Shown here piece by piece: positions 33,161 through 62,502 of a DNA stretch of 64,000 bases (the stretch's first letter is position 1; each line of letters starts with the position of its first letter). The position numbers and the translations under genes were made by a program. The notes below the pieces were generated by a model. It saw only the letters and a list, made by a program, of their open reading frames with translations, was not told the origin of the DNA and made no database searches. The stretch spans positions 62,001-126,000 of the forward strand of contig VCMS01000071.1 of assembly GCA_022539475.1 (NCBI GenBank), given 5' to 3'. This stretch comes from Gracilaria domingensis (lineage: Eukaryota; Rhodophyta; Florideophyceae; Gracilariales; Gracilariaceae).

Positions 33161-36040
33161 TCAGTCCGAATCGATTGCAATGACATCACAGGGCCAATTC
33201 TCTTTGTCACCGTTAGCAGTTGACAGATGTTGGACCCTCGAACCATTACCAGCTTCTGATACGTCACCCCACGCATAGTCGTCTACGCTAAAGCTAAACA
33301 CCATATCTGGATCGCCCATTTCATTGTCATGGATGGCATTTTGGGCAGTATGGACCCCATTTGCACGACTTTGTCCTTGTCCCGGGGTCCCAGCTCGACT
33401 CCCAGGTCCACTACTAGATACAACAGCAGGTGACTCGTCGTCGCTATCCAATGTGAGATCTACAACCTCACAAGTTTTAGCAGGTGATGGTTTCGGTCGC
33501 TGTTTTCCGGAACTCGATTTAATCCCGTCCACCTTTGAATCTTCCTCATCATCAGAAGCAACACCAGTCATTTTGCGTTCGACTTGAACCATGGTACCGT
33601 CCGCAAAGATTTCTACTTCGTCGCAATCGAGGTGCTCCTTGAGGGCATGCTCAATGTATGGCGAAACAACAAGCATCGCCGGTTGTGCTGTAGCCTTGTT
33701 ACAGACGGGACATTCAAACTTTGAACTTCGCCTTGAGTACTCCAAGAAGTTGTCCAGATCAAAACATTGAACGTGTTGGCATCGCTTTCCTTTAACTGGT
33801 GTCTTTATGCGAGTCAAACCCAAGGGGCAACGTAATGAAACCTTCATGGATGATACAGTCAGTCCATCCGGATCCGTCAGAAACAGCATAACCCCCTTCC
33901 TCGCCATCTCAAACTCTGAGGTGTTCTCATTTATGTTTCCCTTTTCAATTTGTGTTCGTCGGTACTCGTTCCAATACTTTTCGCTTGCCTCGAAGACGGA
34001 CTTGGTCATCGTTTCATGACTGCGAACCAGCACTTGTTGCGCAAGAAGCACATACTGGCCACTAGAAGCACTCGCACTGTTCATTTGCCTCCGCAGAACG
34101 ATCATGTTGTTTACGTTGGGTCCAGCCGGCTTGTATTTTCGAAGATAAGGAGTTATATTGGTGGCTGAATCGCGTCCGGCCAATTTGCCATTTGTATATC
34201 GCTGAGCTTGATTCAAAGCAATGTTGTTTCCATTGACGCGGCATGTAGCAGGGAACGGCCAAGCTTGCTGCCATGACGTTTTGGGCTTTTCAAAATCAAC
34301 TCGCAAACATCGAAGGTGGACTTGCACATCGCCGCCTTTGACCTCGGGTCGAGCCAGCGGGTCGATGGGCGGCGGCGTCATGAACTTTAGCACAGGATCG
34401 TCATTTCCTCGAGTGAGCTGCATTGCTGTGAACAACACGAAGCGCGGAAAGCCAAGAGGTGCATTGAGCGGCTTGTTGAACGGGTTTTCTCCTACATCAA
34501 ACGAGAAGTCTGAAAGCGCTTCATTGCAAATGTTCTGCATTTGTTTATCTCTGCTCTGTTGAGCACTCCCAGATCTCGGGTTCGATATTTGGCGCTGCAG
34601 GTTGTCGAGCATTCGATGAGCGTTGACGGCGGTGGCTGTGTGAGTCGCTGAGGATTGCAAACCTAAGGAGGGCATGTTGGCGCGTGGGCGACCTAGCTGC
34701 GCAGCGCGCGTATTGGTGTTGACGTACTGCGCGCTTTGATTGTGTCTGGCGTGAATTCTAGACGGAATCATTGGTTTCTTGCTGCTGGACGGAATGCGAT
34801 ACTTGAGTGGCGACATCAAAGATGACACAATCCGTTTGGCCACATCGTCCTTCCTACCATGTTTGGCGACGCAAAAGACCCAGGCAAGGATATCGAGATC
34901 ATGCTTGTTCAAGGCGCTGAGCCAGCGCGAGTTGGGGCTCGAGGAGCACGAAAAGCCGTTGAAGTTCAAAATATGTTCGCGCTGCATCTGCTGCGTGAGG
35001 TTGAGTCTACCCGTCTGCAAAATGGTTTGCGCGAGCGCCACCAGCACAGGGCTGCCGTCTCGAAACAGAGCGAGAGCATCCTTCATTGGCTGGATGTCGC
35101 GTATTGACATGGGCGCTCCTTCCCCCCCGCGCGGCGGGTGATGAGTGGAGGCATTGGGCGGTCTGGGCGCGGAGGACGCATGATGCGGGGTGTGGCGCGC
35201 GCTGGCGGTGCGAGAAGCTGAGGTGAAGAGCTGCGGCTGGGTGCCGTTCTGGACGGCAGCGTGTGCAACAGATGGCTGCTGCGACGAAAGGCCCGTGGTC
35301 GAAAACGAACGCGAGGAGTTGTTGCGCATGTTGGTGAACTGCGGCATGAAGCGCATTCGCGGCGTCTTGGGCGTGGGCGGCGCTGACGTCGGGGCGGCGG
35401 CGGGCACGGAGGGCGATCGCGTTTGCGGCTGGTTGCGGTACGGGCGGGAGGGGAAGGGCATCGGCACGAACGGGGGCAAAAATTGTGGCGGCGACGGAAC
35501 GGCGGCCGGCATCGGCGGCACGAACGGCGGCGGGATGGGCGTCGGAAGGTTGTTGTACGGCGGAAACGGCTGCGGCGGCGCCGGCGCCGGCTGCGGCGGC
35601 GCCGGCGTGGGCGACGCGGCGTGGCGCGAGCTGGGCGCAGAGGCGGTGGGCGAGTTGATCATGTTGGCAATGGCGGACAGAGAGGCGCGCTGCTGCGCGG
35701 ACAGCGGCGGCGGCGGCGGCGGCTGCGGCTGCGGCGGCGGCGGCCACAGCGGCAGGCCGCGCGGCGGCGAGCGCGCCGCGCCGCTGGCCGGCGGCGCGCG
35801 GAACGGCGGCGGCGGCGGCGAGCGCGCGGGCGGCTGCGGCGGCTGCGGCGGCTGCGGCGGCGCCGGCGGCGCGCGCGCGCGCGGCGCGCGCGAAGGCGGC
35901 GGCGGCGCGGCGGACAGGCGCGAGTACGCGCCGCCCGCGAGCGCGCGCGCCGGCGGCGGCGGCGGCGCGCGCGGCGGCGGCGGCGCGTCCTCGCAGCGCC
36001 GCCGCTTGTGCGCGAACGCGTGCTCGCTCTGGGGACGCAT
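33161..36040 (-). CDS. PIAS/SIZ-type SUMO E3 ligase with long proline-rich N-terminus
   Basis: A 959-residue SUMO ligase. A SAP-like segment lies at about 360-410 (LSALNKHDLDILAWVFCVAK), a PINIT-like region at about 500-690, and an SP-RING at about 737-800. The SP-RING has CPLGLTRIKTP, then CQHVQCFD, FLEYSR and CPVCNK. The SP-RING recruits Ubc9; PINIT picks substrate; SAP binds DNA. A SUMO-interacting motif may be the acidic EVVDLTLDSDDE near the end. The first ~330 residues are almost entirely Pro/Ala/Arg/Ser, encoded by GC-rich trinucleotide repeats, after a basic HKRRR motif. The ATG at 36040 is used; a still longer open frame upstream is low-complexity (GC)n and unlikely to be coding. No intron. 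Confidence 0.88.
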   Translation of the reverse strand: MRPQSEHAFAHKRRRCEDAPPPPRAPPPPPARALAGGAYSRLSAAPPPPSRAPRARAPPAPPQPPQPPQPPARSPPPPPFRAPPASGAARSPPRGLPLWPPPPQPQPPPPPPLSAQQRASLSAIANMINSPTASAPSSRHAASPTPAPPQPAPAPPQPFPPYNNLPTPIPPPFVPPMPAAVPSPPQFLPPFVPMPFPSRPYRNQPQTRSPSVPAAAPTSAPPTPKTPRMRFMPQFTNMRNNSSRSFSTTGLSSQQPSVAHAAVQNGTQPQLFTSASRTASARHTPHHASSAPRPPNASTHHPPRGGEGAPMSIRDIQPMKDALALFRDGSPVLVALAQTILQTGRLNLTQQMQREHILNFNGFSCSSSPNSRWLSALNKHDLDILAWVFCVAKHGRKDDVAKRIVSSLMSPLKYRIPSSSKKPMIPSRIHARHNQSAQYVNTNTRAAQLGRPRANMPSLGLQSSATHTATAVNAHRMLDNLQRQISNPRSGSAQQSRDKQMQNICNEALSDFSFDVGENPFNKPLNAPLGFPRFVLFTAMQLTRGNDDPVLKFMTPPPIDPLARPEVKGGDVQVHLRCLRVDFEKPKTSWQQAWPFPATCRVNGNNIALNQAQRYTNGKLAGRDSATNITPYLRKYKPAGPNVNNMIVLRRQMNSASASSGQYVLLAQQVLVRSHETMTKSVFEASEKYWNEYRRTQIEKGNINENTSEFEMARKGVMLFLTDPDGLTVSSMKVSLRCPLGLTRIKTPVKGKRCQHVQCFDLDNFLEYSRRSSKFECPVCNKATAQPAMLVVSPYIEHALKEHLDCDEVEIFADGTMVQVERKMTGVASDDEEDSKVDGIKSSSGKQRPKPSPAKTCEVVDLTLDSDDESPAVVSSSGPGSRAGTPGQGQSRANGVHTAQNAIHDNEMGDPDMVFSFSVDDYAWGDVSEAGNGSRVQHLSTANGDKENWPCDVIAIDSD

Positions 36041-36528
36041 GCGGCGGCGGGGCGCGGGGGCGCGGGGGCGCGGGGGCGCGGGCGGGCGGGCGGGCGGGGG
36101 GCGCGGGCGCGCCGCGGTGACCGGCCGGTGGGAAGCGCGCGCGCTGCGAGCGGCGTGGCCGCGGGCGCGCGCCGCGCCGCGCCCGCGCCGCCGCGCCGCG
36201 AATAAAACGCGCAAAACCGCCGCGCAAAGTTTGCGCGCGCCCGGCCGTGCGGCGCGCCCTGTGGCGCGGCGCGGCGCGGCGCGGCGCGGCGCGGCGCGCG
36301 CGGCGGCGCGCTGCGCGCTGCGCGCGCGCGGCGGCGCGCGCGCCTTCGACGCGCGGCGGCGGCGCTCGCGCCGACGGCGCCAGTGCGCGCCCACACGCGA
36401 CGCGCCCACACGCGGCGGCGGCGCGCGCCACGGGGCGGGCGCGCCGCGCGCGCGCGCCTTGATGCGCGCCGGCGGCGGCGCGCGCGCGCACGGCGCCGCC
36501 GTCCGGCCGCCGGCGCGCTCGCCGCACT

Positions 36529-36558
36529 GCGCGCGCGCGCGCGCGCGCGCGCGCGCCG
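36529..36558. repeat. (GC)15 dinucleotide tract, Z-DNA-prone
   Basis: Strict alternation of G and C for about 30 bases. It lies about 490 bp upstream of the SUMO-ligase ATG. Confidence 0.9.
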
Positions 36559-36949
36559 GGCGGTGCCCACTCCGCCCGCGCGCCGCGCGCCGCCGGCCGC
36601 GCCGGCTATGAGTCGTCGCCGTTGATTCAGCGGCGCGCGGCGCGCAGCAGCGCCGACGTCTCATCTCGCGCAGCGCGCGCGCCGACGCCTGCGCCAGCGC
36701 GGCCGAGCGCTGCGCGCGCGGCTGCGCGCGCGCCGCATGCGGCGTGCAAGGCGGTTACAGCCTCGTTTCGCAGCGCGCGCGTCTCGCGCCTGCGCGCGTG
36801 CTCGCGTTGCAGACGCGATCACGGCGGCAGTGATTGACGGCGGAACATGTGATGATGTGAGATCACATGATGTGGCGGCGTCGATACCGACCGAACGTAC
36901 GCGAGTCTCGTGTCAAAAAGTCGGCACTTCTGCCTGCGCGACGCACCCA

Positions 36950-36968
36950 CCCCCCCCCCCCCCCCCCC
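36950..36968 (+). repeat. Poly-C tract, 19 C
   Basis: Uninterrupted C19 preceded by CACCCA. Similar G or C runs occur at 22952, 27027 and 59908. Confidence 0.85.
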
Positions 36969-37256
36969 GCCCCGCTCGCACCGGCTGCAGCGCGCTGCAG
37001 CGGCGCAGCGAGTAGTACCACTCGCCACCGCGGCGACAAGCGCAATCGAAGCAGCAATGACAGGTTATGTACTGTGTGTGTTTTATATATGTGCAAAGTG
37101 CGTTGAGCACTCCTCTCGGTGGTACGCTCTTTGGTCGCCGACCGAGCGCAATAGCCGATTGTTTAGACACAGCAAGTCAACATGGCGGCCGGCCGCACGC
37201 GTTGTGCAGGTTCACACAGCACGAGCGCTGCTCAATGCGGCGCGCCGCCAGCTGCA

Positions 37257-38731
37257 TCAGCGTGGTGTGCTTTGATTTGACGCCGCTTCAGCCGCGCTCA
37301 AGTGGCACTGCACCTCGTCAATGCCTTCCTGAATCGCAGCGCAGCGTTGGCTGTACGAGCGCGCCTCCCGCAGGCACAGCGCGAGCGCCCTGTTCATGCT
37401 GCACGCCGCCTTTTTCAGGTCCTGCAGCCTCGAGCTCGACGTGCTCGCGCGCTCAAAGTACGCCTTGCCCACGCACTCGCACAGCACCGATTCCAGCTGG
37501 CGCAGCTGGTCCGACACGCGCAGCTCGCCGTCGCGCAGCTTTTCCACGTCCATGCGCAGCTGCTCCAGCATGATGAGCAGCTCGAACACGTTCATGCCGC
37601 ACGTGCGCGCGCCGTTGCGAGTGGCGCTGGCGCTGGCGCGCGTTTTTCTCAGAAAGCGCAGCGTGAGCTGCGCCACGCGGCACGACAGCCACATCACGTT
37701 GACGGGCGACTGCAGCGCCGCCATCTTGGACAGCTGGATGGCGGCGTTGTAGCACTCGCACGCCGCGCAGATGTTGTCGCACGCGGCGCCGTCGCTGAGC
37801 AGCGAGTACGCGTCGCCCAGCGTGACGCACACGTCGTACTGCAGCTTGGGGTCGCGGATGGCGTACAGCGCCACCTGCGCCGCCTTTGCGTGCGCAATGG
37901 CCTCCGGCACGCGCGACAGGTCGCCCACGCTGAGCAGCTCGCGCGCCTTGAGCGCGTTGAGCGAGGCCACCAGCTGCGGGAACAGCCGCTCGCGGCCGGC
38001 GGCCAGGTCCAGGCCGCACTGGCAGTACGCGATCAGCTGGTCGCTTGGCGCCGAGCGCGTGGACGCGTAGAACGACGCCAGCGCGGCGTACGCCTCGATG
38101 CGCACGTTGGAGTGCGGCAGCGACACGGCGTCGCGCTCGGCGCACAGCGTGCGCAGCGCGCTCTCCAGCGCGGCCATGAGCTTGTTCCTGGCGTCGGCGG
38201 ACAGGTCGGGCGCCTTGACGGCCTGCAGCGCGCGCGAAAACGCCTCGGGGGACGCTGGCGACAAAAAGAGAGAGCACGTCAGCACGCGGCAAACAAACAG
38301 CGCTGCGCGCGGTGGCGGCGCGCGCGCGCGCGCGCGCGCAAAACTTACTTTGCTGCAGCTGCTTGAGCAGCGAGTCGTACGAGGTCTCCGCCGTGATGTC
38401 GCTGTCGTCGTCCAGCAGCGGCCGCGACTCGGAGCTGGAGTACGAGCGCGGCTGCGACGGCTCCGCGGCGCTGGGCGCGCGCGCCGCGTGCGGCGGCGGC
38501 GGCGGCGGCGCAAACGCGGGCGCGGGCGTGAGCGTGTGCGACGAGTCGGTGAGGTTGAGCACGACGGTCATGTTGGCGTTGAGGTCGTGCAGGAACGCCG
38601 ACGGCGCCAGGCCGGCCAGCGCGCTGACGTCGCCGCCCGTTTGCGGCGGCGGCGCCGGCGGCGCCGGCGCGTGCGGCGGCGGCGGCGCGTGCGGCGGCGC
38701 GTGCGGCGGCGCCGGCGGCGCGTCGGGCGGC

Positions 38732-38777
<46 letters not shown>

Positions 38778-38804
38778 TGAGCGACGCGCTGGCCGTGACG
38801 TGCA

Positions 38805-38865
<61 letters not shown>

Positions 38866-39018
38866 GCACTCGCAGGCGCACGCGGCGGACGGCAGCACGA
38901 ACACGCACGGCACGCAGAACACGCGCAGCGCGCGGCGCTCGCAGCCGCAGCGCGGCGGGTGCATCGGCAGCGGCTTGCGCGCCTCGCGCGCGCGGCGGCG
39001 CAGGCACAGGGCGCGCAT
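37257..39018 (-). CDS. Uncharacterised proline-rich protein with C-terminal helical (TPR-like) region
   Basis: Two exons, 38349-39018 and 37257-38254, with a GT-AG intron of 94 nt (GTAAGT...TCGCCAG) in phase 1. About 555 residues. The N-terminus is basic, then a Cys/Val-rich hydrophobic patch (about 33-50), then a long polyproline run from (GGC)n, an Ala-Pro hexanucleotide repeat and further Pro-rich stretches. A short acidic stretch (LLDDDSDITAETSYDSLL) precedes the intron. Exon 2 is all-helical, with TPR-like spacing: EAYAALASFYAST, LVASLNALKARELLSVGD, YDVCVTLGDAYSLLSDG, ALCLREARSYSQRCAAIQ. I recognise no family. The helical half looks genuinely coding; the start codon is less certain because the GC-rich frame stays open upstream. 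Confidence 0.6.
38735..38866. repeat. (GGGCGC)n and (GGC)n coding microsatellites
   Basis: About seven copies of GGGCGC (38735-38776) encode Ala-Pro. About twenty GGC triplets (38805-38866) encode polyproline on the minus strand. Confidence 0.85.
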
Positions 39019-39242
39019 GGCGGCGGGGGGGGCGGGCGGCGCGGCGGCGGCGGCGGCGGCGCGGCGGGTGCGCGCGCGCGGCGCGGCGGCAGCGCGGCGC
39101 GCCGCGGCGAGCGCGGTATAAGAGCGCGCGGTCGCGGCGCGGAGAGAGGAAGGCGGCGGCCGGCAAGGCGCCTGGAAAGCTGTCGCCAGCCGATGGACGC
39201 CTGCCACGCCTCGCCGCGCGCCGCGCGCGGCTGACAGCTCGT

Positions 39243-39285
<43 letters not shown>

Positions 39286-40331
39286 ACGCTCAATTCAACT
39301 TGCGCGCGCCGCCGTCGCCTGGCGCCGGCGCCGCCGCGCGCGCGTTCGGCGGCGCGCGTTCGCCGGCGCGGCGCGGCGTGGCGCGGCGCCGGCGCCGGCG
39401 CCGGCGCCGGCGGCCGGCGCCGGTGCGGAGGCGGCGACGGCGCGACGCATGATGCGGCGGCGGCGGCGGCGGCGGCAGCGCGGGCGAGCGTCTCCGGGCG
39501 CGCGCGCGCGCGCACAACACGTAAGATGGGCGGCGTGCCGATTCGATGCCTAATAATGGATTATTATTGCGCGGCGCTGGCGCGAGGCGGGCGCGCGCGC
39601 GCGCGCGACAAGCTGTCTCGCGCGCCGAAAGCGCCGCAGGCGGCGAATGGACGCGCAGACGCGTCGCTTGCTGTGCAATGGACAGTGTCCATCGCGCTGC
39701 GCCGTGCCGCTGTGCTCAGCGGGTGCAAGCACTCGAGTTGTGTGCGCCCACCCGCAGCGTTCCTGCCCGCGCTTCCTTCCCTTGGCGCCATGATTACGCG
39801 CCGATGTGCCACTTGGCGTGCCGAGCAGTCCACCGCACAATTCTATAACGCCACGCCTTTCCACACGAGTTGGTCCATATCAAGTGTGCTGCAACCAAGC
39901 GTGGTCAAAACCGTGCACAGAGTTCGTCCCAACACATGCCTCGTGCCTCTCGAGCCCCCCTAAAAAAAAACGTACCGCAGCATCCCCAAGCCGTTTGAAT
40001 CAAAAAAAAAAAAACAAAACTGTTGTCGTTTCCAAAACGCCTGCCCCACTGTACCTTCGCCGCCTATAATAATAGCCAGATAACTGCTCGTGGCTTGGCG
40101 TTGCTCACAAACAGAACAAACAACCGAGCAAAATTAACCGAGCCTCACACAACCACCAAACAGTACCAAAACGCTATCGCCAAATCTCTTGTTCTCCTCT
40201 ATACCCCGCTTGTACTGCATGACAACCATCAAACTCCACCGTTGCCGACCAAACACTTGCGCCCAAAACGACGATTCGTACCTTCCCGCCTTCGCCGCCA
40301 CCACGCCCTCATGTTCCCGTCCACTAGCCGT
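39019..40331. other. GC-rich to AT-rich transition, no gene
   Basis: 39019-39530 is extremely GC-rich, with (CCG)14 at 39243-39285 and GGCGCC palindromic runs at 39390-39425. Composition then falls sharply to AT-rich by 39960 (poly-A runs). No frame I would call a gene. Confidence 0.5.
39243..39285. repeat. (CCG)14 microsatellite
   Basis: Uninterrupted CCG triplets, about 225-270 bp upstream of the proline-rich gene's ATG; non-coding as annotated. Confidence 0.85.
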
Positions 40332-45090: not shown

Positions 45091-45710
45091 AAGGCGGGGT
45101 TGCTGAGTGCAGGCGGGGGAAAGAAGAAGGCAATGAGGAGTGGGGGTGGACGAGGGGAGACATTGGTCAGAGGAGGCGCTATGCGATGGAGTAGCAGGAG
45201 GCGAGAGCACGCGGAGATATGCAGCGCGGGCAGCAAGCATCGCCGGCGCGCACAAAACCGGGTTAAAAAAAGCGCGGGTAGGAAGAGTGAGCGCGGGTGA
45301 GATATGAGCGGCGAGCAATGAGGTGGGGGTGGGGAAGTGAGGCGGGCGGGGATGCGGCAGCACGCGCAACGCCGGCGCTTGGACGGGGACGTCGGCGCGT
45401 GGTGGCACGCGGCGGCAGAACGGGGGTGGGGGAGGGAGCGAGAGGAGGCGTCAACGGCGCGTTGAGCGGCAGCGGACGGCGACGACTAAAGCGGCGGAGC
45501 CGCCACCTTGGCATGTGCCCGCGCGTGCGCGCCTCGTCCCGTGCAAAGCAGCGCGCCCCTTTTTGGAACAAGGGGCGGCGCACGCAACGTAAGGCAACAC
45601 AGCGCGCGGCACGCGTCGGGCCACGTGCGGCACTTGTGCGAGCCGCGCGCGAGCGACAGCGCGCATCCGCACAAGCGTTCATCGCGCGCGCCAGACGGGC
45701 GTTGCGCGGT
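45091..45710. other. GC-rich intergenic region
   Basis: Upstream of two divergent gene models. Open frames on both strands are compositional. No feature recognised. Confidence 0.4.
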
Positions 45711-45986
45711 GCAATGCGATGAGGCGCGACGTCGATGACCGGCGCGGCGCTGGGGCACGCGTTTAGCGGCGCGCCGGCGGCGCGCGGATGGCGGCGCGCG
45801 GCGCAATGCGATGAGGCACGATGTCGATAACGGGCGCGGCGCTGGGGCGCGCGTTTGGCGGCGCGCGGGCGCCACGCCGCTGGCGCCGCGCGACGCAATG
45901 CAATGCGGCGCGACGTCGATGAGGGGCGCGGCGTTGCAGCGCTCGTTTGGTGGCGAGCCGGCGCCGCGCGGCTTGCGCGCCGCGCT
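45711..45986. repeat. 92-bp tandem repeat, three diverged copies
   Basis: Units start with GCAATGC at 45711, 45803 and 45895, exactly 92 bp apart. Shared landmarks per unit include CGAYGTCGAT and GGCGCGGCG followed by GCGTTTRGCGGCG or its variants. 92 is not a multiple of three, so the repeat is not a protein repeat. The third copy overlaps the start of the DUF1640-like gene. Confidence 0.85.
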
Positions 45987-56520: not shown

Positions 56521-57753
56521 AGTCTCTCTGACCCATCACCAGACTCACTCCAGTACGAAGCTCGTTTGCCCCCCGCAAACAAAAGTCTTCACAGTGTCTC
56601 TATTGACATACCCCAACATCACGAGCGTTCGTCTTTAGACGCGCAAAAGAATCCAGTTTGGCGCAGCATACGTTGCTGGGCTAAACCAGTTTTTAAGCTC
56701 CATCTCAGCAATACAAAAACACTGTTTAGTCTTTGCATCTCAAAGAAGCACTCTATAAAGGTTTGATTTCAAAAGACCAAAGCTGCTGAATAGTCATCAT
56801 GACAAAGTAGTTTTGCAATGTAAATATGGGAAGGATTATAGAAGATGTCAGCTCCGTTCTGCGCTCCTTTCGTTGCGGCTGAGGAAAGTGACGGTGTGAT
56901 CAAGAAATGTGGTTTAGAGAGTGAAGTACATTCAAAAATCTGTGCACGTGGGAGAACTGCTTCTCTTCTGTGCGTTTCGGTCTTCATTGGTATTGGTGCA
57001 CCTTCGAATAGATCTAATTTGATCCTTTAGTTAAGGGTTCTAGTTGTTTTCAGACACGTGGCGGTTCTTTTTGGTGGCATGCGAAATTTTCATTTAGACA
57101 GATTCTTGGCTTCAAAACGTGCGCATGTGTGCTGCACATTTCTTGCCTTCTGTCCAACCCGTTAGGTCCCCATTAAATTACAATAACCAGTGTGCAACCA
57201 GCAAGCTGCTTCGTATCTACCATCCAGTCTTGTTGCACATGCGCTGCACGGCTGCCCATTTTGTACCCAAGTCGTCGCATTGTACTCACGCTATCATACT
57301 TGCACATGCTTCTCACCACCAACACAATGGTTTTAATATTTTTCTTCATAAAAAAAAAAAAAAAAACGAGAAAACTCTCTATTTACATCCCACACATATA
57401 ATCCAGCAACCAACGATAAACGATAATAGTTTTATTGTAAAAAAAACTTAATTAACGACATAGCGACATAGCAACTTACTATCCAAAACATCATGACCAT
57501 CAAAGTACCAAACCTGCTAATTTCAATAGCCTTTTACATTTTTTTACAAGCCAAAAATATCTTATAATACTTACTATTGGCTTACTTTTGAGATCCTACA
57601 CAAAAACATAACTTACATAATTTCAAAATGCTATTGTCGATTCTCTTTTGCAGAAAAAAGCTACACATTGCTTAATTTACCTAAAAACTCTTTGAAACAT
57701 TTGAGGAGCTTTTTGAAATTTTCTCGTAACTTGAGTGTGGTGGCGTTTCTTAC
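56521..57753. other. AT-rich gene-free DNA
   Basis: 1.2 kb becoming strongly AT-rich from about 57340 (an A-run at about 57350 and many A/T homopolymers). No gene or RNA recognised. Confidence 0.5.
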
Positions 57754-58190
57754 GGGGTGTCCTACCGTCTCAGGGACACCCCCGAAGAATTTTTTTCTTA
57801 TATCTCCGCGGGGAGATACGCGAAGTGCAGCGTAGAAGCTGCACTTTACATCTCCCCCGCCTGCTCCGGCGCCAGCTACAAGACAGGAGCATACTGCCCG
57901 TCGAGCCGCCGTGGCGCGACAGCGCACAAAAAAAGGCTTCTGCCAGTCGCACCGCTGCGGCGCGACTGCACAGGAGCGTGCTGCCCGTCGCGCCGCCGTG
58001 GCGCGACAGCGCACAGGAAAAGGCTTCCGCCAGTCGCGCCGCCGTAACGCGACTGCACAGGAGCGTGCCGCCTGTCGCCCCGCCGTGGCGCGACAGCGCG
58101 TAGGAAAGTGAACGCGACGCGCTCCCTTGGCGCGACGGCGAGATCGAAGATGGTGCCGCGCGTCGCGTCGCCGTGGCGCGATGACGCGGA
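57754..58190. repeat. Cluster of consecutive hairpins with an 87-bp tandem period
   Basis: Stems in order: GGGGTGTCC (57754-57762) with GGACACCCC (57774-57782); TATCTCC with GGAGATA (57801-57818); AAGTGCAGC with GCTGCACTT (57823-57846); TGCTCC with GGAGCA (57862-57891). A row of GTCGCGCC...GGCGCGAC-type hairpins follows at 57900-57920, 57945-57967, 57987-58007, 58032-58054 and 58074-58094. Alternating members repeat at exactly 87 bp. Two degenerate ones follow (about 58110-58185). The spacers are also repeated (AGCGCACARRAAAAGGCTTC, TGCACAGGAGCGTG). It begins abruptly at the edge of AT-rich DNA. Long frames cross it on both strands but are compositional. Confidence 0.85.
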
Positions 58191-58437
58191 GGAAGTGGTC
58201 ACGTCGCTCACCAGGACCGTTAGAGGTGGCACAGTTGCTCATCACGCTGAGGCTGTAACGGGCACGAGCAGGCGTGTTCGCTCGCCAGCTGTCGCTTGCT
58301 GTCGCTAATACTGCTTGCTGGTGCGCGCTACATGACACGGCCATATTGGGTAAGCAGAGAAGCAATTTTTATCGGTGTGTAACAGCAGAAGTGCGCATGA
58401 AGATTCTAGGCATAGAGAGGAGAGCGAGGCTCGTCAT

Positions 58438-58887
58438 TCATCCGTCAATTATTGCATCAAGATCTGCCAGTAGCAGACGAACCGGGTCTAAGTTGTCACG
58501 ATGACGGGCGATGAGAACGAAGGAGATGCCGTCATGAAGGCCTTGCTGGTAAGGGAACGGCGCATCCCTCACGTACTCGCGTACTTCTTGGGCAGCGCCG
58601 GGGGCCCCACCTGCAACTCGGGGAAGCAATAGATGGATACGAATTAGCATATCAATAGCAAGTTCCACGTCGGTTTCATGGAGCGCGCTAGCTGAAGTCG
58701 CGTCGGAATCCCGCTCGGTTTCCTCCAAAGAAGAGTCGTCATCATTTCCAGCAGTTCCCTCCACTGCTTCTAAGTCCAAGACGTTACTGGTCGGCGTTGA
58801 AAGTGGCTCCCGAGAGGACGCGGCGGGATTGGAATCATCCGTCATGGACGCAATCTGTTCGGTCACGGTAGGCGGTTCGCTGCTCAT
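58438..58887 (-). CDS. Small acidic protein, unknown, paralogue-like to its neighbour
   Basis: A 149-residue frame from the ATG at 58887. The first ~75 residues are acidic and Ser/Thr-rich. The rest is compact: DVELAIDMLIRIHLLL, REYVRDAPFPYQQGLHDGIS, LDPVRLLLADLDAIIDG. This C-terminal half aligns loosely with that of 59044-59469 on the same strand, suggesting a tandem pair. No known family. It sits between the hairpin cluster and the LTR retrotransposon, so it may belong to an element. Confidence 0.45.
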   Translation of the reverse strand: MSSEPPTVTEQIASMTDDSNPAASSREPLSTPTSNVLDLEAVEGTAGNDDDSSLEETERDSDATSASALHETDVELAIDMLIRIHLLLPRVAGGAPGAAQEVREYVRDAPFPYQQGLHDGISFVLIARHRDNLDPVRLLLADLDAIIDG

Positions 58888-59043
58888 GGCGATGCAATAT
58901 GAAAACCACGACGCTTGCACTCTCTGAAACCGGGAGACCATTTGTACCCAGAACAAACACTCGAGGCTTAAGAAGTCAGGACACCGGCCCTGTACCTGGT
59001 GCCCTCCTCGGGGATAGTGTGGGAACGCGAGACCATGTATTAA

Positions 59044-59469
59044 TCACATACGAACGCACACAGGGCGGTCATTTTGTTCAATCACACGAGTCTTAAGAAG
59101 CTCTAACACGCGCATGATGTCACCTTCATGAACCTGGATTCCGGCTGAAACACCGAATGTCACGCGCAACCCCAGCAACACGCCACGAAGATAGATCGTT
59201 GGCAGACGACTGACTAGGATGCGCAACACATTTTCGGTGGAGCCGAAGGAGACGGTACCTCGGGAAATGTCATGTAGAATTGACTCGAACTCACCCATCA
59301 ACATTGGCGACCAGGTTATATCAGGACCTTCGCCAGGGATAGGCCGGGAATGACACAGATCCCAAGATGCGCTGCCCGGTGAGCTACAGACGAGGGTTAG
59401 ATAATCGGTGTCGTCCGCAGTGACGGCGTTAGCAACGGCCGCCTCAGTGTTGCGTGTAGTTGTTGACAT
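59044..59469 (-). CDS. Small protein, unknown, tandem paralogue-like
   Basis: A 141-residue frame from the ATG at 59469 (MSTTTRNTEAAVANAV). The C-terminal half reads FESILHDISRGTVSFG, VLRILVSRLPTIYLRGVLLG, then DIMRVLELLKTRVIEQ. It shares the order 'VRxxVxxxPxxYxxGxxxGxxF ... VRxLLxxL' with the 58438-58887 product. The pair is 156 bp apart, same strand, and antisense to the LTR element that follows. No function can be proposed. Confidence 0.45.
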   Translation of the reverse strand: MSTTTRNTEAAVANAVTADDTDYLTLVCSSPGSASWDLCHSRPIPGEGPDITWSPMLMGEFESILHDISRGTVSFGSTENVLRILVSRLPTIYLRGVLLGLRVTFGVSAGIQVHEGDIMRVLELLKTRVIEQNDRPVCVRM

Positions 59470-60540
59470 GATTCCAACAAAGGTTAACCAGCCTTGAAGG
59501 ATGAGGACGGCCATCACCAGGACAACACGACCTTGAATGATAACGAGAACCAAGGAGAACTATCCCAAGACAACTGAGGAAGGGTTCCACCCCCCAGTTC
59601 CGGGACAGCATCGTTCAATACCAACAGAAATGATGGAAGAGCATGGAACACGAACGATACCTGGAAATTCCCTAGAGCGACCTAACACCATCTCATCACT
59701 GGCCAATCACCAGCCAACATAACGAGGAACCGTACGTTAACATCCCTACCTACTATGGACATGGTGAGCAACACTAGGTTATTTATCACAAGATAACGAT
59801 CATGCTACAACTTAGGCATACGAAGCATCACAGTTGTAGATATAAACCCCCGAGTTCGAGGCTCCTCAGCCAACTCGACTCGGGTAGACCACTCCCCCCC
59901 TCGACGACCCCCCCCCCATCTTTGCCTCTCTCGCCTTTTTTCCTCCCTTTCCGTCGTCACCAACCTTCTTTCCTTTGGCACTCCCACCTTCCCTCAGCGC
60001 AGTCTGCGCCTCCCTGCCACCAACCTTTCCCCCTACATTTCCTTATTCCCGGCGGCCCGGTCTCCCGCCGCTCCCTACCCAGTCGCCTTGTGCTGCCCTC
60101 CATTGGGCTCGTCCGCACATTGCGATCATATCTACACCCCCGTTCCCCCGGACGGACGTGGGAAGTGGTACGCATTGCACGGGTTCCCTTCCTGTCGTCA
60201 CCTCGCCTGGTTACTAGGTTTATGGTGGTATCGACGACAGGATCGAACGCCTTAGCCCTGCCCATTCTACTGTTCCGCCGACAACCTTGGTGTGTTGGTC
60301 TGTTGGCGCTGCATTCTGTCGTTGTGTTGGCATTCGGCATCGAACGCCGAACCACACTCTCGTTTAATTTCTCTCCCCGCTTCCTGTTAGCGGAGAGTTT
60401 CTACTATCTTGGGGTTATCTTGTCTGTCCTGCAGGCATCTGAGCTACGTTAACTTGTCGCCCCTTTTGGGCTGGTACTCTCGAGCATTTATTGTGTCGCT
60501 CTCCTTGGGTTTGTCACCACCCGCGCTGTTTCCCCCAAAA

Positions 60541-62502
60541 ATGGCGTCCACATGGTACTCTCGAGGAGGGCCTGGCTCTCCTGATTCTGGTCTGATTTCC
60601 TTCGATGGTTCTGCCGTCGACGTAAGGAAGTTTCTGTTTTACTTTGAGAATGTCGCTACCCCCAACGAAGAGGATAGTGTTCGGGCTATGAAGTTGCTCG
60701 GCTATCTTGAGGGTGAAGCGTTTGACTTCTACTATGACAACTATGCTGTTGATGGCTCTCTTTCAATTGAAGCAAAGGACTATCAGAATGTGAAGCTTGC
60801 TTTGATCGAACGTTTCGGTGCAATCGAGGAACCGGCGGAGAGGATTCGCCGGGCAGTTTCGGCACGTTTAGATTACGTCGATCTGCTAGAGTCCCTGAAG
60901 AAGATGGACTCTTTCTTCGATCAGGCAGGTTTTAACTCGAAAGCTAAGTTCGGGTTACTACGAAACGCTGTCATGGAGTTTGCAGATCTTGCGCAGTTTG
61001 TCATATTCCGTGGAGCAGATGACTATGAATCCTTGAAGGTCCTCGTTAAGGACTTTGTTGGCGGAAAGAAAGCTCTCGGGTCGTATGGTACCCTTAACGC
61101 TTTCCCACCGGCAAAGCACATTCTTCAACGTGCTAAGGAGCCCGCTCGTCCAAGTCCGCTGGAGTCGAAAGTGGATCACATGGCTGACCAGATGGCACAG
61201 TTGCACCTCCTAGTGAAGAAGACTCAGAGCGCTGCGACTGCCACCGGACGTCAGGATACGGAAAAAATTTGTTCGTATTGCAGCCAACCCGGTCACTTTG
61301 CGGCACGTTGTGAGCTTAATCCACATCGAGGCACACGATGTGGTAATTGTGGCAAGTTAGGTCACTCTACAGCTACGTGCTGGAGGAAGAATAACACCGA
61401 TGTTGTGCGAAAAGTTGCATTTGAAGGTGTGAAATCCGAATCAGAGAGAGAGAGGTTGCTGAGTGAGAAACGAGGTTCCCAGAACACAGATGGGAACCAA
61501 GTCTCAGTTGTGATTGCTGACCCTCTAGATGATGAAGATCCCGTTACAACCGCAAAAAGAGACGCAGAAGGGGAGCCTCTGCCCAAGCAACCACGAACTG
61601 GCCCTCTCTCAGGGATTTCCCCCGTAATGTTTCCCGAATCCCACACCACCAGGACTGCTTCTCAGCAAGCCAAAAACCCTCCCAAGAAGTCGACAAGGAC
61701 TAGGAAGGGCACTGGGAAGAAGTCTAAGGGGAAGTCCCGGAGACTGAAGATCCAAGAACACGTTGGGAAATATAACATTTACGAAGAATTGGCGAGAGCC
61801 CCTTCTGGCATCACTTTTGGTCAACTAGTCCGCGGTGATGCGGACGAGGCCAAGAAAGACATTCGGCGCATTCTTTCCGGAGGTTTTTCGTCAAGGCGTG
61901 TCAGTTACGCTCATACTCATTCACTCCCTCAGACTCTCAAAGTGGTGAATGTTACTGTCTATGGCACTAGTTCCCAGGCGCTGCTGAACTCCGGTGCTCT
62001 CCCTAATCTTATGTCTATTGCGTTATGCAACCGGTTATCGTTGGAGATGAAACCGTCGAGTAGGAGGATTGTCGTTGCCGACGGAACCAAATCCTTAGTT
62101 CGCGGAAGCCTGCACGATGTTCCCCTCGAGTTTGGTTCTCTCCGCGTCCCGTTGAATTTCCTGGTCGTTGAGAAGCCTCCCTTCAATGTGATCGTTGGCT
62201 GTCCTGCTCTTGAGTCACTCCAAGCCTGCTTAGACCTCGGTACTCAGCAAGTTTCTATGCAATTTGACGGCGCATCTGTTGTTTTGCCTCTCGACTACCA
62301 TCGCCCTACTGTAGTGTTCGACAAAGAGAATGAACACACCGACAGTGAGGATTTCACTTCCGCTTCAGAGTCGTTCTTCTCTGAGAGTTCAGAGAGCGAC
62401 GACGATGGATACGCGATCGCTTTCTCGAAGGGAAAAGTTGACACGTCGGTATATGCTTTGAATACTATGAATGAAGAACAAGACTCCTTACAACCACTCT
62501 AA
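60541..62502 (+). CDS. Retrotransposon gag-protease (two CCHC knuckles; protease Asp replaced)
   Basis: A 653-residue frame from the ATG at 60541. The capsid-like retrotransposon gag domain (AMKLLGYLEGEAFDFYYDNY) comes first, then two CCHC zinc knuckles. These are CSYCSQPGHFAARC from residue 244 and CGNCGKLGHSTATC from residue 267. A Lys-rich stretch and a retropepsin-like domain (about 470-570) follow. The active-site motif reads LLNSGALPN at 61981-62007: Asn483 stands where catalytic Asp is expected (GAC to AAC would be a single change). The flap and second strand (VADGTKSLVRG, FNVIVGCPALESL) are present. A TAA ends the frame at 62500-62502, though the same frame continues as the next segment. 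Confidence 0.85.
   Translation: MASTWYSRGGPGSPDSGLISFDGSAVDVRKFLFYFENVATPNEEDSVRAMKLLGYLEGEAFDFYYDNYAVDGSLSIEAKDYQNVKLALIERFGAIEEPAERIRRAVSARLDYVDLLESLKKMDSFFDQAGFNSKAKFGLLRNAVMEFADLAQFVIFRGADDYESLKVLVKDFVGGKKALGSYGTLNAFPPAKHILQRAKEPARPSPLESKVDHMADQMAQLHLLVKKTQSAATATGRQDTEKICSYCSQPGHFAARCELNPHRGTRCGNCGKLGHSTATCWRKNNTDVVRKVAFEGVKSESERERLLSEKRGSQNTDGNQVSVVIADPLDDEDPVTTAKRDAEGEPLPKQPRTGPLSGISPVMFPESHTTRTASQQAKNPPKKSTRTRKGTGKKSKGKSRRLKIQEHVGKYNIYEELARAPSGITFGQLVRGDADEAKKDIRRILSGGFSSRRVSYAHTHSLPQTLKVVNVTVYGTSSQALLNSGALPNLMSIALCNRLSLEMKPSSRRIVVADGTKSLVRGSLHDVPLEFGSLRVPLNFLVVEKPPFNVIVGCPALESLQACLDLGTQQVSMQFDGASVVLPLDYHRPTVVFDKENEHTDSEDFTSASESFFSESSESDDDGYAIAFSKGKVDTSVYALNTMNEEQDSLQPL

Follow-up and report, generated by a model that had tools for sequence, protein, structure and literature searches.

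Hairpins crowd together at positions 57754–58190 of a 64,000-nucleotide stretch of contig VCMS01000071.1 of the red alga Gracilaria domingensis (the whole stretch is hereafter the window). A reading of the sequence alone (the sequence-only reading) had weighed a structured non-coding RNA, a fold-back element and a recombination or replication site, with a private GC-rich satellite as the fallback. Searches across the 77.9 Mb assembly containing the window showed that it is the U3 edge of a long terminal repeat (LTR) of a Ty3/gypsy retrotransposon. The left LTR (57736–60552, plus strand; 2,817 bp, TGTGG...CCACA) was delimited by a direct LTR copy, TG..CA ends and a target-site duplication (TSD), TTGAG, with its left copy at 57731–57735 and its right copy after the right LTR, beyond the window. 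The right LTR (C71:129643–132546; 2,904 bp) starts 9.9 kb downstream and is 87 bp longer. The U3 edge with the hairpins comprises the first 455 bp of the left LTR. The AT/GC boundary described in the sequence-only reading (GC 0.37 in the 1,000 bp upstream vs 0.66 in 57736–58200) is the insertion point of the element, because the LTR with its TSD starts there.

The LTR start is a dispersed sequence, so that copies were indeed found elsewhere, as the sequence-only reading had proposed to check. The sequence from 57736 onwards recurred in 47 matching stretches with a 551-bp query, and a 151-bp query over the LTR start gave 33, some copies being counted as more than one stretch; a pattern for the LTR start matched 84 genome places vs 4 for a control pattern. 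Perfect 5-bp TSDs flanked 11 of the 13 copies examined (exceptions C187 and C15), and one LTR copy, C297, ended in CCACC instead of CCACA. These copies are LTR direct repeats, which speaks against a fold-back element; long terminal inverted repeats were not found, only the short TGTGG/CCACA ends being inverted. A private satellite proved wrong, as the exact GC palindrome described below occurs at 69 genome places and a control pattern at 0. A stand-alone non-coding RNA was rejected because Rfam models gave no match reaching the gathering score anywhere in the window and because the sequence is an LTR edge; the cluster is probably a control region of the element. The assignment to Ty3/gypsy follows the domain order in a sister copy (L011), which encodes protease, reverse transcriptase (RT), RNase H and integrase, in that order, across two overlapping frames. 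The pol of the window element is spread over several frames; its RT and RNase H are clear, and its integrase core scores under the Pfam cut-off. Apparent solo LTRs were observed at C154, C172, C318, C78, C90 and C136, each being a single LTR flanked immediately on either side by matching target duplications.

Structure beyond base composition, claimed in the sequence-only reading, was borne out by folding and by a mechanical hairpin scan. The RNA fold of 57736–58200 had z scores of -5.98 (plus strand) and -6.85 (minus strand) and the DNA-parameter fold of the plus strand -4.40; in each of the three foldings none of 100 shuffles folded as well. The scan of the same interval found eight hairpins with a net stem score of at least 6 (60 shuffles: mean 2.6, maximum 6) and seven with a score of at least 7 (mean 0.93, maximum 3). 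The count of 'at least nine' stem-loops was therefore slightly generous, eight being clear under the scan thresholds; the figure of eleven with degenerate ones corresponds to four hairpins, HP1–HP4, plus seven GC units. HP1 (57747–57789, plus strand, as are the following) has a 16-bp stem with two mismatches, the core GTGTCC/GGACAC and an 11-nt loop. It is followed by a T-rich run (57790–57799), which most of the related LTR starts inspected by eye also show, by HP2 (57801–57818; TATCTCC gcgg GGAGATA) and by HP3 (57823–57846; AAGTGCAGC gtagaa GCTGCACTT). When the folded interval is taken as a whole, its minimum-energy structure pairs the 3' arm of HP2 downstream of HP3 instead. Evidence for HP4 (57862–57891; TGCTCC/GGAGCA) is weak; it is not in the right LTR and, by eye, not in the C172, C144, C318 and C98 copies.

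The organization of HP1–HP3 was compared across 65 candidate LTR starts from four retrievals (29+4+20+12). Seven of these, by eye unrelated to LTRs (C4, C16, C25, C49, C53, C91 and C167), served as informal controls, which were picked on the same sequences and hence are not independent; of the 58 remaining starts, C555 and C205 had no true start and C46a no array. The fold z of the first 125 nt ranged from -1.67 to +1.61 in the controls and was mostly between -8.5 and -2 among the LTR starts listed, where weak values were those of C187b (-1.61), C90 (-1.31), C134R (-0.68), C17b (-0.47) and C134L (-0.04). A similar layout at the LTR edge was found across divergent families, whose identity to the window family in the leading 125 nt is as low as 36%. 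These families keep a hairpin around LTR positions 12–55, usually the T-rich run, and often a second hairpin with TATCTCC/GGAGATA-like arms; C35, C77 and C218a showed no HP2, and no HP3 turned up in the C8, C20 and C35 families. An extra hairpin of the TGTCCTG/CAGGACA type was observed between HP1 and HP2 in the LTR starts of C15, C134, C78, C90 and C17b (L046, L049, L054, L052, L026, L069).

When arms were swapped between families 36–85% identical, native arms paired better than swapped ones, showing that the arms of HP1–HP3 co-vary between families. The comparison used search ranges set by hand and hand-picked representatives, 12 of the 58 starts for HP1 and nine each for HP2 and HP3, the latter two sets being only families with a visible hairpin. 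Permutations of the 3' halves reached the native total energy in 0 of 20000 trials for HP1, 120 of 20000 for HP2 and 5 of 20000 for HP3. Pairs 6, 8, 9 and 10 from the HP3 loop occur in both A-T (or T-A) and G-C (or C-G) forms, the alternative form at pairs 8 and 9 resting on a single sequence (C77). A GAA-containing loop was kept in eight of nine HP3 representatives while the stem changed, a count taken from the arm-swap set because the pair table had been anchored on GAA.

The GC array downstream (57883–58190; GC 0.71, CpG observed/expected 1.48) behaves differently. It contains seven dyads of the form GTCGCGCC-N5-GGCGCGAC with up to three mismatches, starting at 57900, 57946, 57987, 58033, 58074, 58116 and 58162. 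The 87-bp period of the sequence-only reading was recovered by the program TRF (2.6 copies, 88% matches), the true unit being a 21-bp palindrome repeated in alternating 41- and 46-bp steps that sum to 87 bp. The 58 LTR starts together hold 132 dyad units, 111 of them distinct, at the same mismatch limit; with up to four mismatches, 61 of 116 intervals are 46 bp and 28 are 41–44 bp. The C8, C35 and C77 families carry other GC palindromes in place of the dyad. Among the 111 distinct units the arm sequences are conserved, and most mutations in them lack a compensating change: native and shuffled partners pair nearly equally at most of the eight arm positions (95 vs 95.9, 99 vs 99.4, 94 vs 94.2). 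Uncompensated stem changes, which the sequence-only reading had named as a mark of a mere satellite, were thus largely found in the GC array and not in HP1–HP3. Positions flanking the array units (-1/+1, -2/+2) also pair better than shuffled partners, which is not counted as evidence because slid controls (-3/+4, -4/+5) behave alike. In the arms, G.T mismatches are about as frequent as A.C mismatches (45 vs 38) and therefore give no sign of a one-strand RNA; selection on such an RNA was rejected on wobble counts, here and in HP1–HP3, without strand preference, a weak test as the copies are decaying. Conserved and uncompensated arms fit a site bound by protein on double-stranded DNA better than they fit a stem of RNA. 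Independent half-sites of a DNA dyad would give this pattern, although neutral decay in dead copies would resemble it.

Other GC-rich sequence in the window has few or no such dyads. The interval 35500–39500 is a low-complexity tract of very high GC content (reaching 0.82 in single kilobases), rich in short palindromes but with only two 3-mismatch dyad matches, and 45704–45985 holds three copies of a 92-bp GC-rich tandem repeat with no match to the LTR dyad within three mismatches. A scan of genome contigs for the palindrome gave, among the matches listed, bacterial and archaeal ones, which were taken as chance in GC-rich genomes.

Downstream of the array, a motif scan located a TATA-like motif, GATATAAACCCCC, at 59839–59851 (plus strand); it was matched with up to two mismatches in 17 of the 20 loci L009–L028, and not in L014, L017 and L024. 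It lies about 1.65 kb from the array in the window and about 0.3 kb in the C8 family, the latter value having been derived by offsets from part of that LTR.

We favour, with modest confidence, a two-part U3 edge in which the dyad array acts as a cis-regulatory protein-binding block and HP1–HP3 are kept as paired arms. The GC dyads would most likely be recognized in double-stranded form by a symmetric DNA-binding protein of the host, and the array may serve as an enhancer or silencer of the element, a reading prompted by conserved arms, variable spacers, regular repetition and the TATA-like motif downstream. HP1–HP3, at most 111 nt from the LTR edge, may have a role in the transcript, where the copy in the 3' LTR would place them right after the polypurine tract (PPT); alternatively they could be further dyad sites. 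The fast divergence of the region, described below, may stem from the instability of palindromic DNA or from host silencing directed against it.

Several observations weigh against this reading. Arm pairs 2 (100 vs 96.7, P 0.022) and 6 (96 vs 93.2, P 0.059) of the dyad, and only these, hint at compensation, and, most copies being in decay, uncompensated changes in the array may partly be neutral. Only 13 of 47 copies have more hairpins in the array region than any of 30 shuffles, and four copies of the C20 family have none in the 291 nt examined. The 41- and 46-bp steps equal 3.9 and 4.4 helical turns, so that the sites are not strictly phased, and the variable distance to the TATA-like motif implies that the array is fixed in position to the LTR edge, not to the promoter. 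The arm-swap families and ranges were self-picked and the statistics ignore relatedness, and for some representatives many chimeras were at least as good as the native hairpin: for HP1, 13 of 22 in C41, 12 in C34, nine in C20b, eight in C218a, seven in C35 and six in C151; for HP2, 14 of 16 in C41, 10 in C71R, nine in C85 and eight in C151; and for HP3, nine of 16 in C118. Mismatches in HP1–HP3 (32 G.T vs 34 A.C) show no strand preference, so an RNA role is not favoured there.

Comparison of the two LTRs of single elements adds a further property of the region: after insertion the hairpin part gains differences several-fold faster than the rest of the LTR, with 87 of 2152 vs 56 of 6457 sites differing in five pairs pooled. 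The counts were 32/455 vs 17/2362 for C71 (window 57736–58190 vs L010 3643–4184), 18/500 vs 9/1250 for C144, 11/497 vs 9/1285 for C181 and 20/270 vs 20/1350 for C134 (Fisher P from 7.8e-15 to 0.011 for these four); the C8 pair, compared over the first ~640 nt only, pointed in the same direction without significance (6/430 vs 1/210). CpG decay alone was rejected as the cause, since non-CpG sites were raised more (57/1463 vs 37/5341, 5.6-fold) than CpG sites (30/689 vs 19/1116, 2.6-fold). Transversions were also raised in the hairpin part (31/2152 vs 22/6457). Transitions of the A/G and C/T types numbered 39 to 17 in the hairpin part and 16 to 18 in the rest. Of 33 polarised changes within the first ~150 nt, 22 were G>A or C>T. 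In all five pairs the copy with more derived changes folds more weakly over its first 125 nt (by 0.2 to 7.2 kcal/mol), and the 87-bp length difference between the LTRs of the window element amounts to one 87-bp unit of the array. Sequencing or assembly error in GC-rich hairpins is a possible source of the fast divergence.

The same data bear on three other explanations. That the whole cluster works as RNA, with stem-loops in the 3' untranslated region (UTR) of genomic RNA, in the U3 of the 3' LTR, that would serve export, packaging or, next to the PPT, plus-strand priming, seems rather unlikely to us; it would account for the near-constant distance to the LTR edge, and with it to the PPT, for the co-variation of the HP1–HP3 arms, for the persistence of the HP3 loop despite stem change and for the plus-strand RNA folding score, but it is at odds with GC-array arms almost without compensation, with the lack of a strand-specific wobble excess, with folding beyond shuffles on both strands and with the empty Rfam search. 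A second explanation is an origin of the palindromes in mutation, made and perfected by hairpin template switching in reverse transcription or replication with no selection on function. We think this improbable: the region is unstable, as the one-unit difference between the LTRs of the window element illustrates, and its hairpin part diverges faster, but the weaker folding of the more derived LTR in every pair means that post-insertion changes do not perfect stems (an argument that bears on such changes, not on template switching in reverse transcription), and cores and positions persist across the divergent families.

In a third explanation the hairpins would chiefly mark the element for host silencing, folded transcripts feeding small RNAs and methylation, for which maize LTR hairpins offer a precedent in the part of PMC10760457 drawn on here. 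The excess at both CpG and other sites and the share of G>A or C>T changes near the LTR edge are in line with it; the raised transversions make deamination alone insufficient, the possible errors in GC hairpins apply here too, and being a silencing target does not account for conservation. We give silencing as the chief role a low probability.

Two antisense open reading frames (ORFs), both on the minus strand inside the LTR, adjoin the cluster: ORF A (58438–58956, 172 aa) and ORF B (59044–59553, 169 aa), neither with a Pfam family. The sequence-only reading had rightly placed two small genes there; that they are paralogous was not upheld, BLASTP showing no mutual similarity (E 12). ORF A matched 29 genome places and ORF B 36, their own two LTR copies included, several with stops. 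Relatives of ORF A that are 50–61% identical and without stops occur at L045, L216, L217 and L221 (LTR context seen for L045 only); among antisense-ORF relatives as a whole, only C154 and C85 were seen in their LTR context. In comparison with the C85 copy, differences at codon positions 1/2/3 were 0.31/0.24/0.51 for ORF A (152 codons) and 0.36/0.24/0.56 for ORF B (86 codons, with a stop in C85), a pattern that, from one comparison each, suggests past protein-level constraint. None of 109 candidates from the protein collection was a homolog of ORF A at E 1e-3, and the structure model of ORF A, from six sequences, was weak (mean pLDDT 68.2), with a helical C-terminal half and no PDB match at E 0.001 or better. 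The array as a 3' UTR of an antisense gene was rejected, the C8 family keeping an array although the array-TATA gap derived for it, about 0.3 kb, would be too short for such an ORF.

Gag, with CCHC knuckles recognized by eye, and an aspartic protease are encoded at 60541–62502 (plus strand). The gag ATG lies within the last bases of the LTR (60541–60552), and a primer-binding site (PBS) directly after the LTR would consequently fall within gag; TGG, the putative PBS start, follows the LTR at 60553 and was found after four of four left LTRs. A purine-rich stretch before the right LTR is a putative PPT. Eight gag homologs in the protein collection were 35–46% identical and lay on contigs of 3.5–15 kb, and a scan of viral contigs with one gag homolog (P0001) found no relative.

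Among known systems, the closest parallel is with Sirevirus LTRs, for which the part of PMC2829016 used here describes repeated palindromic motifs (RM boxes). Going by that part, both have a multicopy dyad-symmetric GC motif in a CpG-rich LTR block upstream of a TATA motif, conserved while the rest of the LTR diverges. Unlike Sireviruses, the window element is Ty3/gypsy by domain order, not Ty1/copia; the conserved core is GTCGCGCC/GGCGCGAC at 41–46 bp spacing instead of CGG-CCG; the TATA-like motif is about 1.65 kb from the last dyad rather than close by; and a separate terminal hairpin set lies at the LTR edge. The dyad array is best read as a possible analogue, in a Ty3/gypsy element, of the Sirevirus LTR palindromes. 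In another known system a stem-loop likewise lies beside the PPT at the edge of U3, but there one arm is upstream of the PPT, whereas here both arms are inside the LTR and up to three hairpins are present. As far as the maize account goes (PMC10760457), hairpins are concentrated in the LTR as here, with cis-regulatory roles and attraction of small RNAs proposed, the peak being in Copia LTRs and Ty3 elements generally lacking an obvious one. Recurrent ORFs antisense to gag-pol are described in Ty3/gypsy elements for Retand in the portion of PMC11963269 considered, as found here; Retand carries them in the interval from pol to the 3' LTR, whereas those of the window are inside the LTR itself and have no Pfam domain match. 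In the titles and abstract openings surveyed, no such U3 module was described for red algae or Ty3/gypsy elements. We tentatively raise, as a doubtful wider proposal, that a previously undescribed U3 edge module of a Ty3/gypsy lineage may combine co-varying end-tied hairpins with a host-protein-binding dyad array, be kept across families despite fast divergence and share its LTR with antisense protein genes.

Control regions of LTRs have usually diverged beyond the point of comparison. In this genome dozens of copies from several families follow a similar plan, so that the question of a DNA site, an RNA structure or a silencing target becomes testable in one species. Under the wider proposal above, even a solo LTR would carry the target array and the antisense genes together. 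The palindrome-array LTR, described for plant Copia elements, would also extend to a Ty3/gypsy lineage, and the antisense ORFs point to protein genes that may be hidden inside LTRs.
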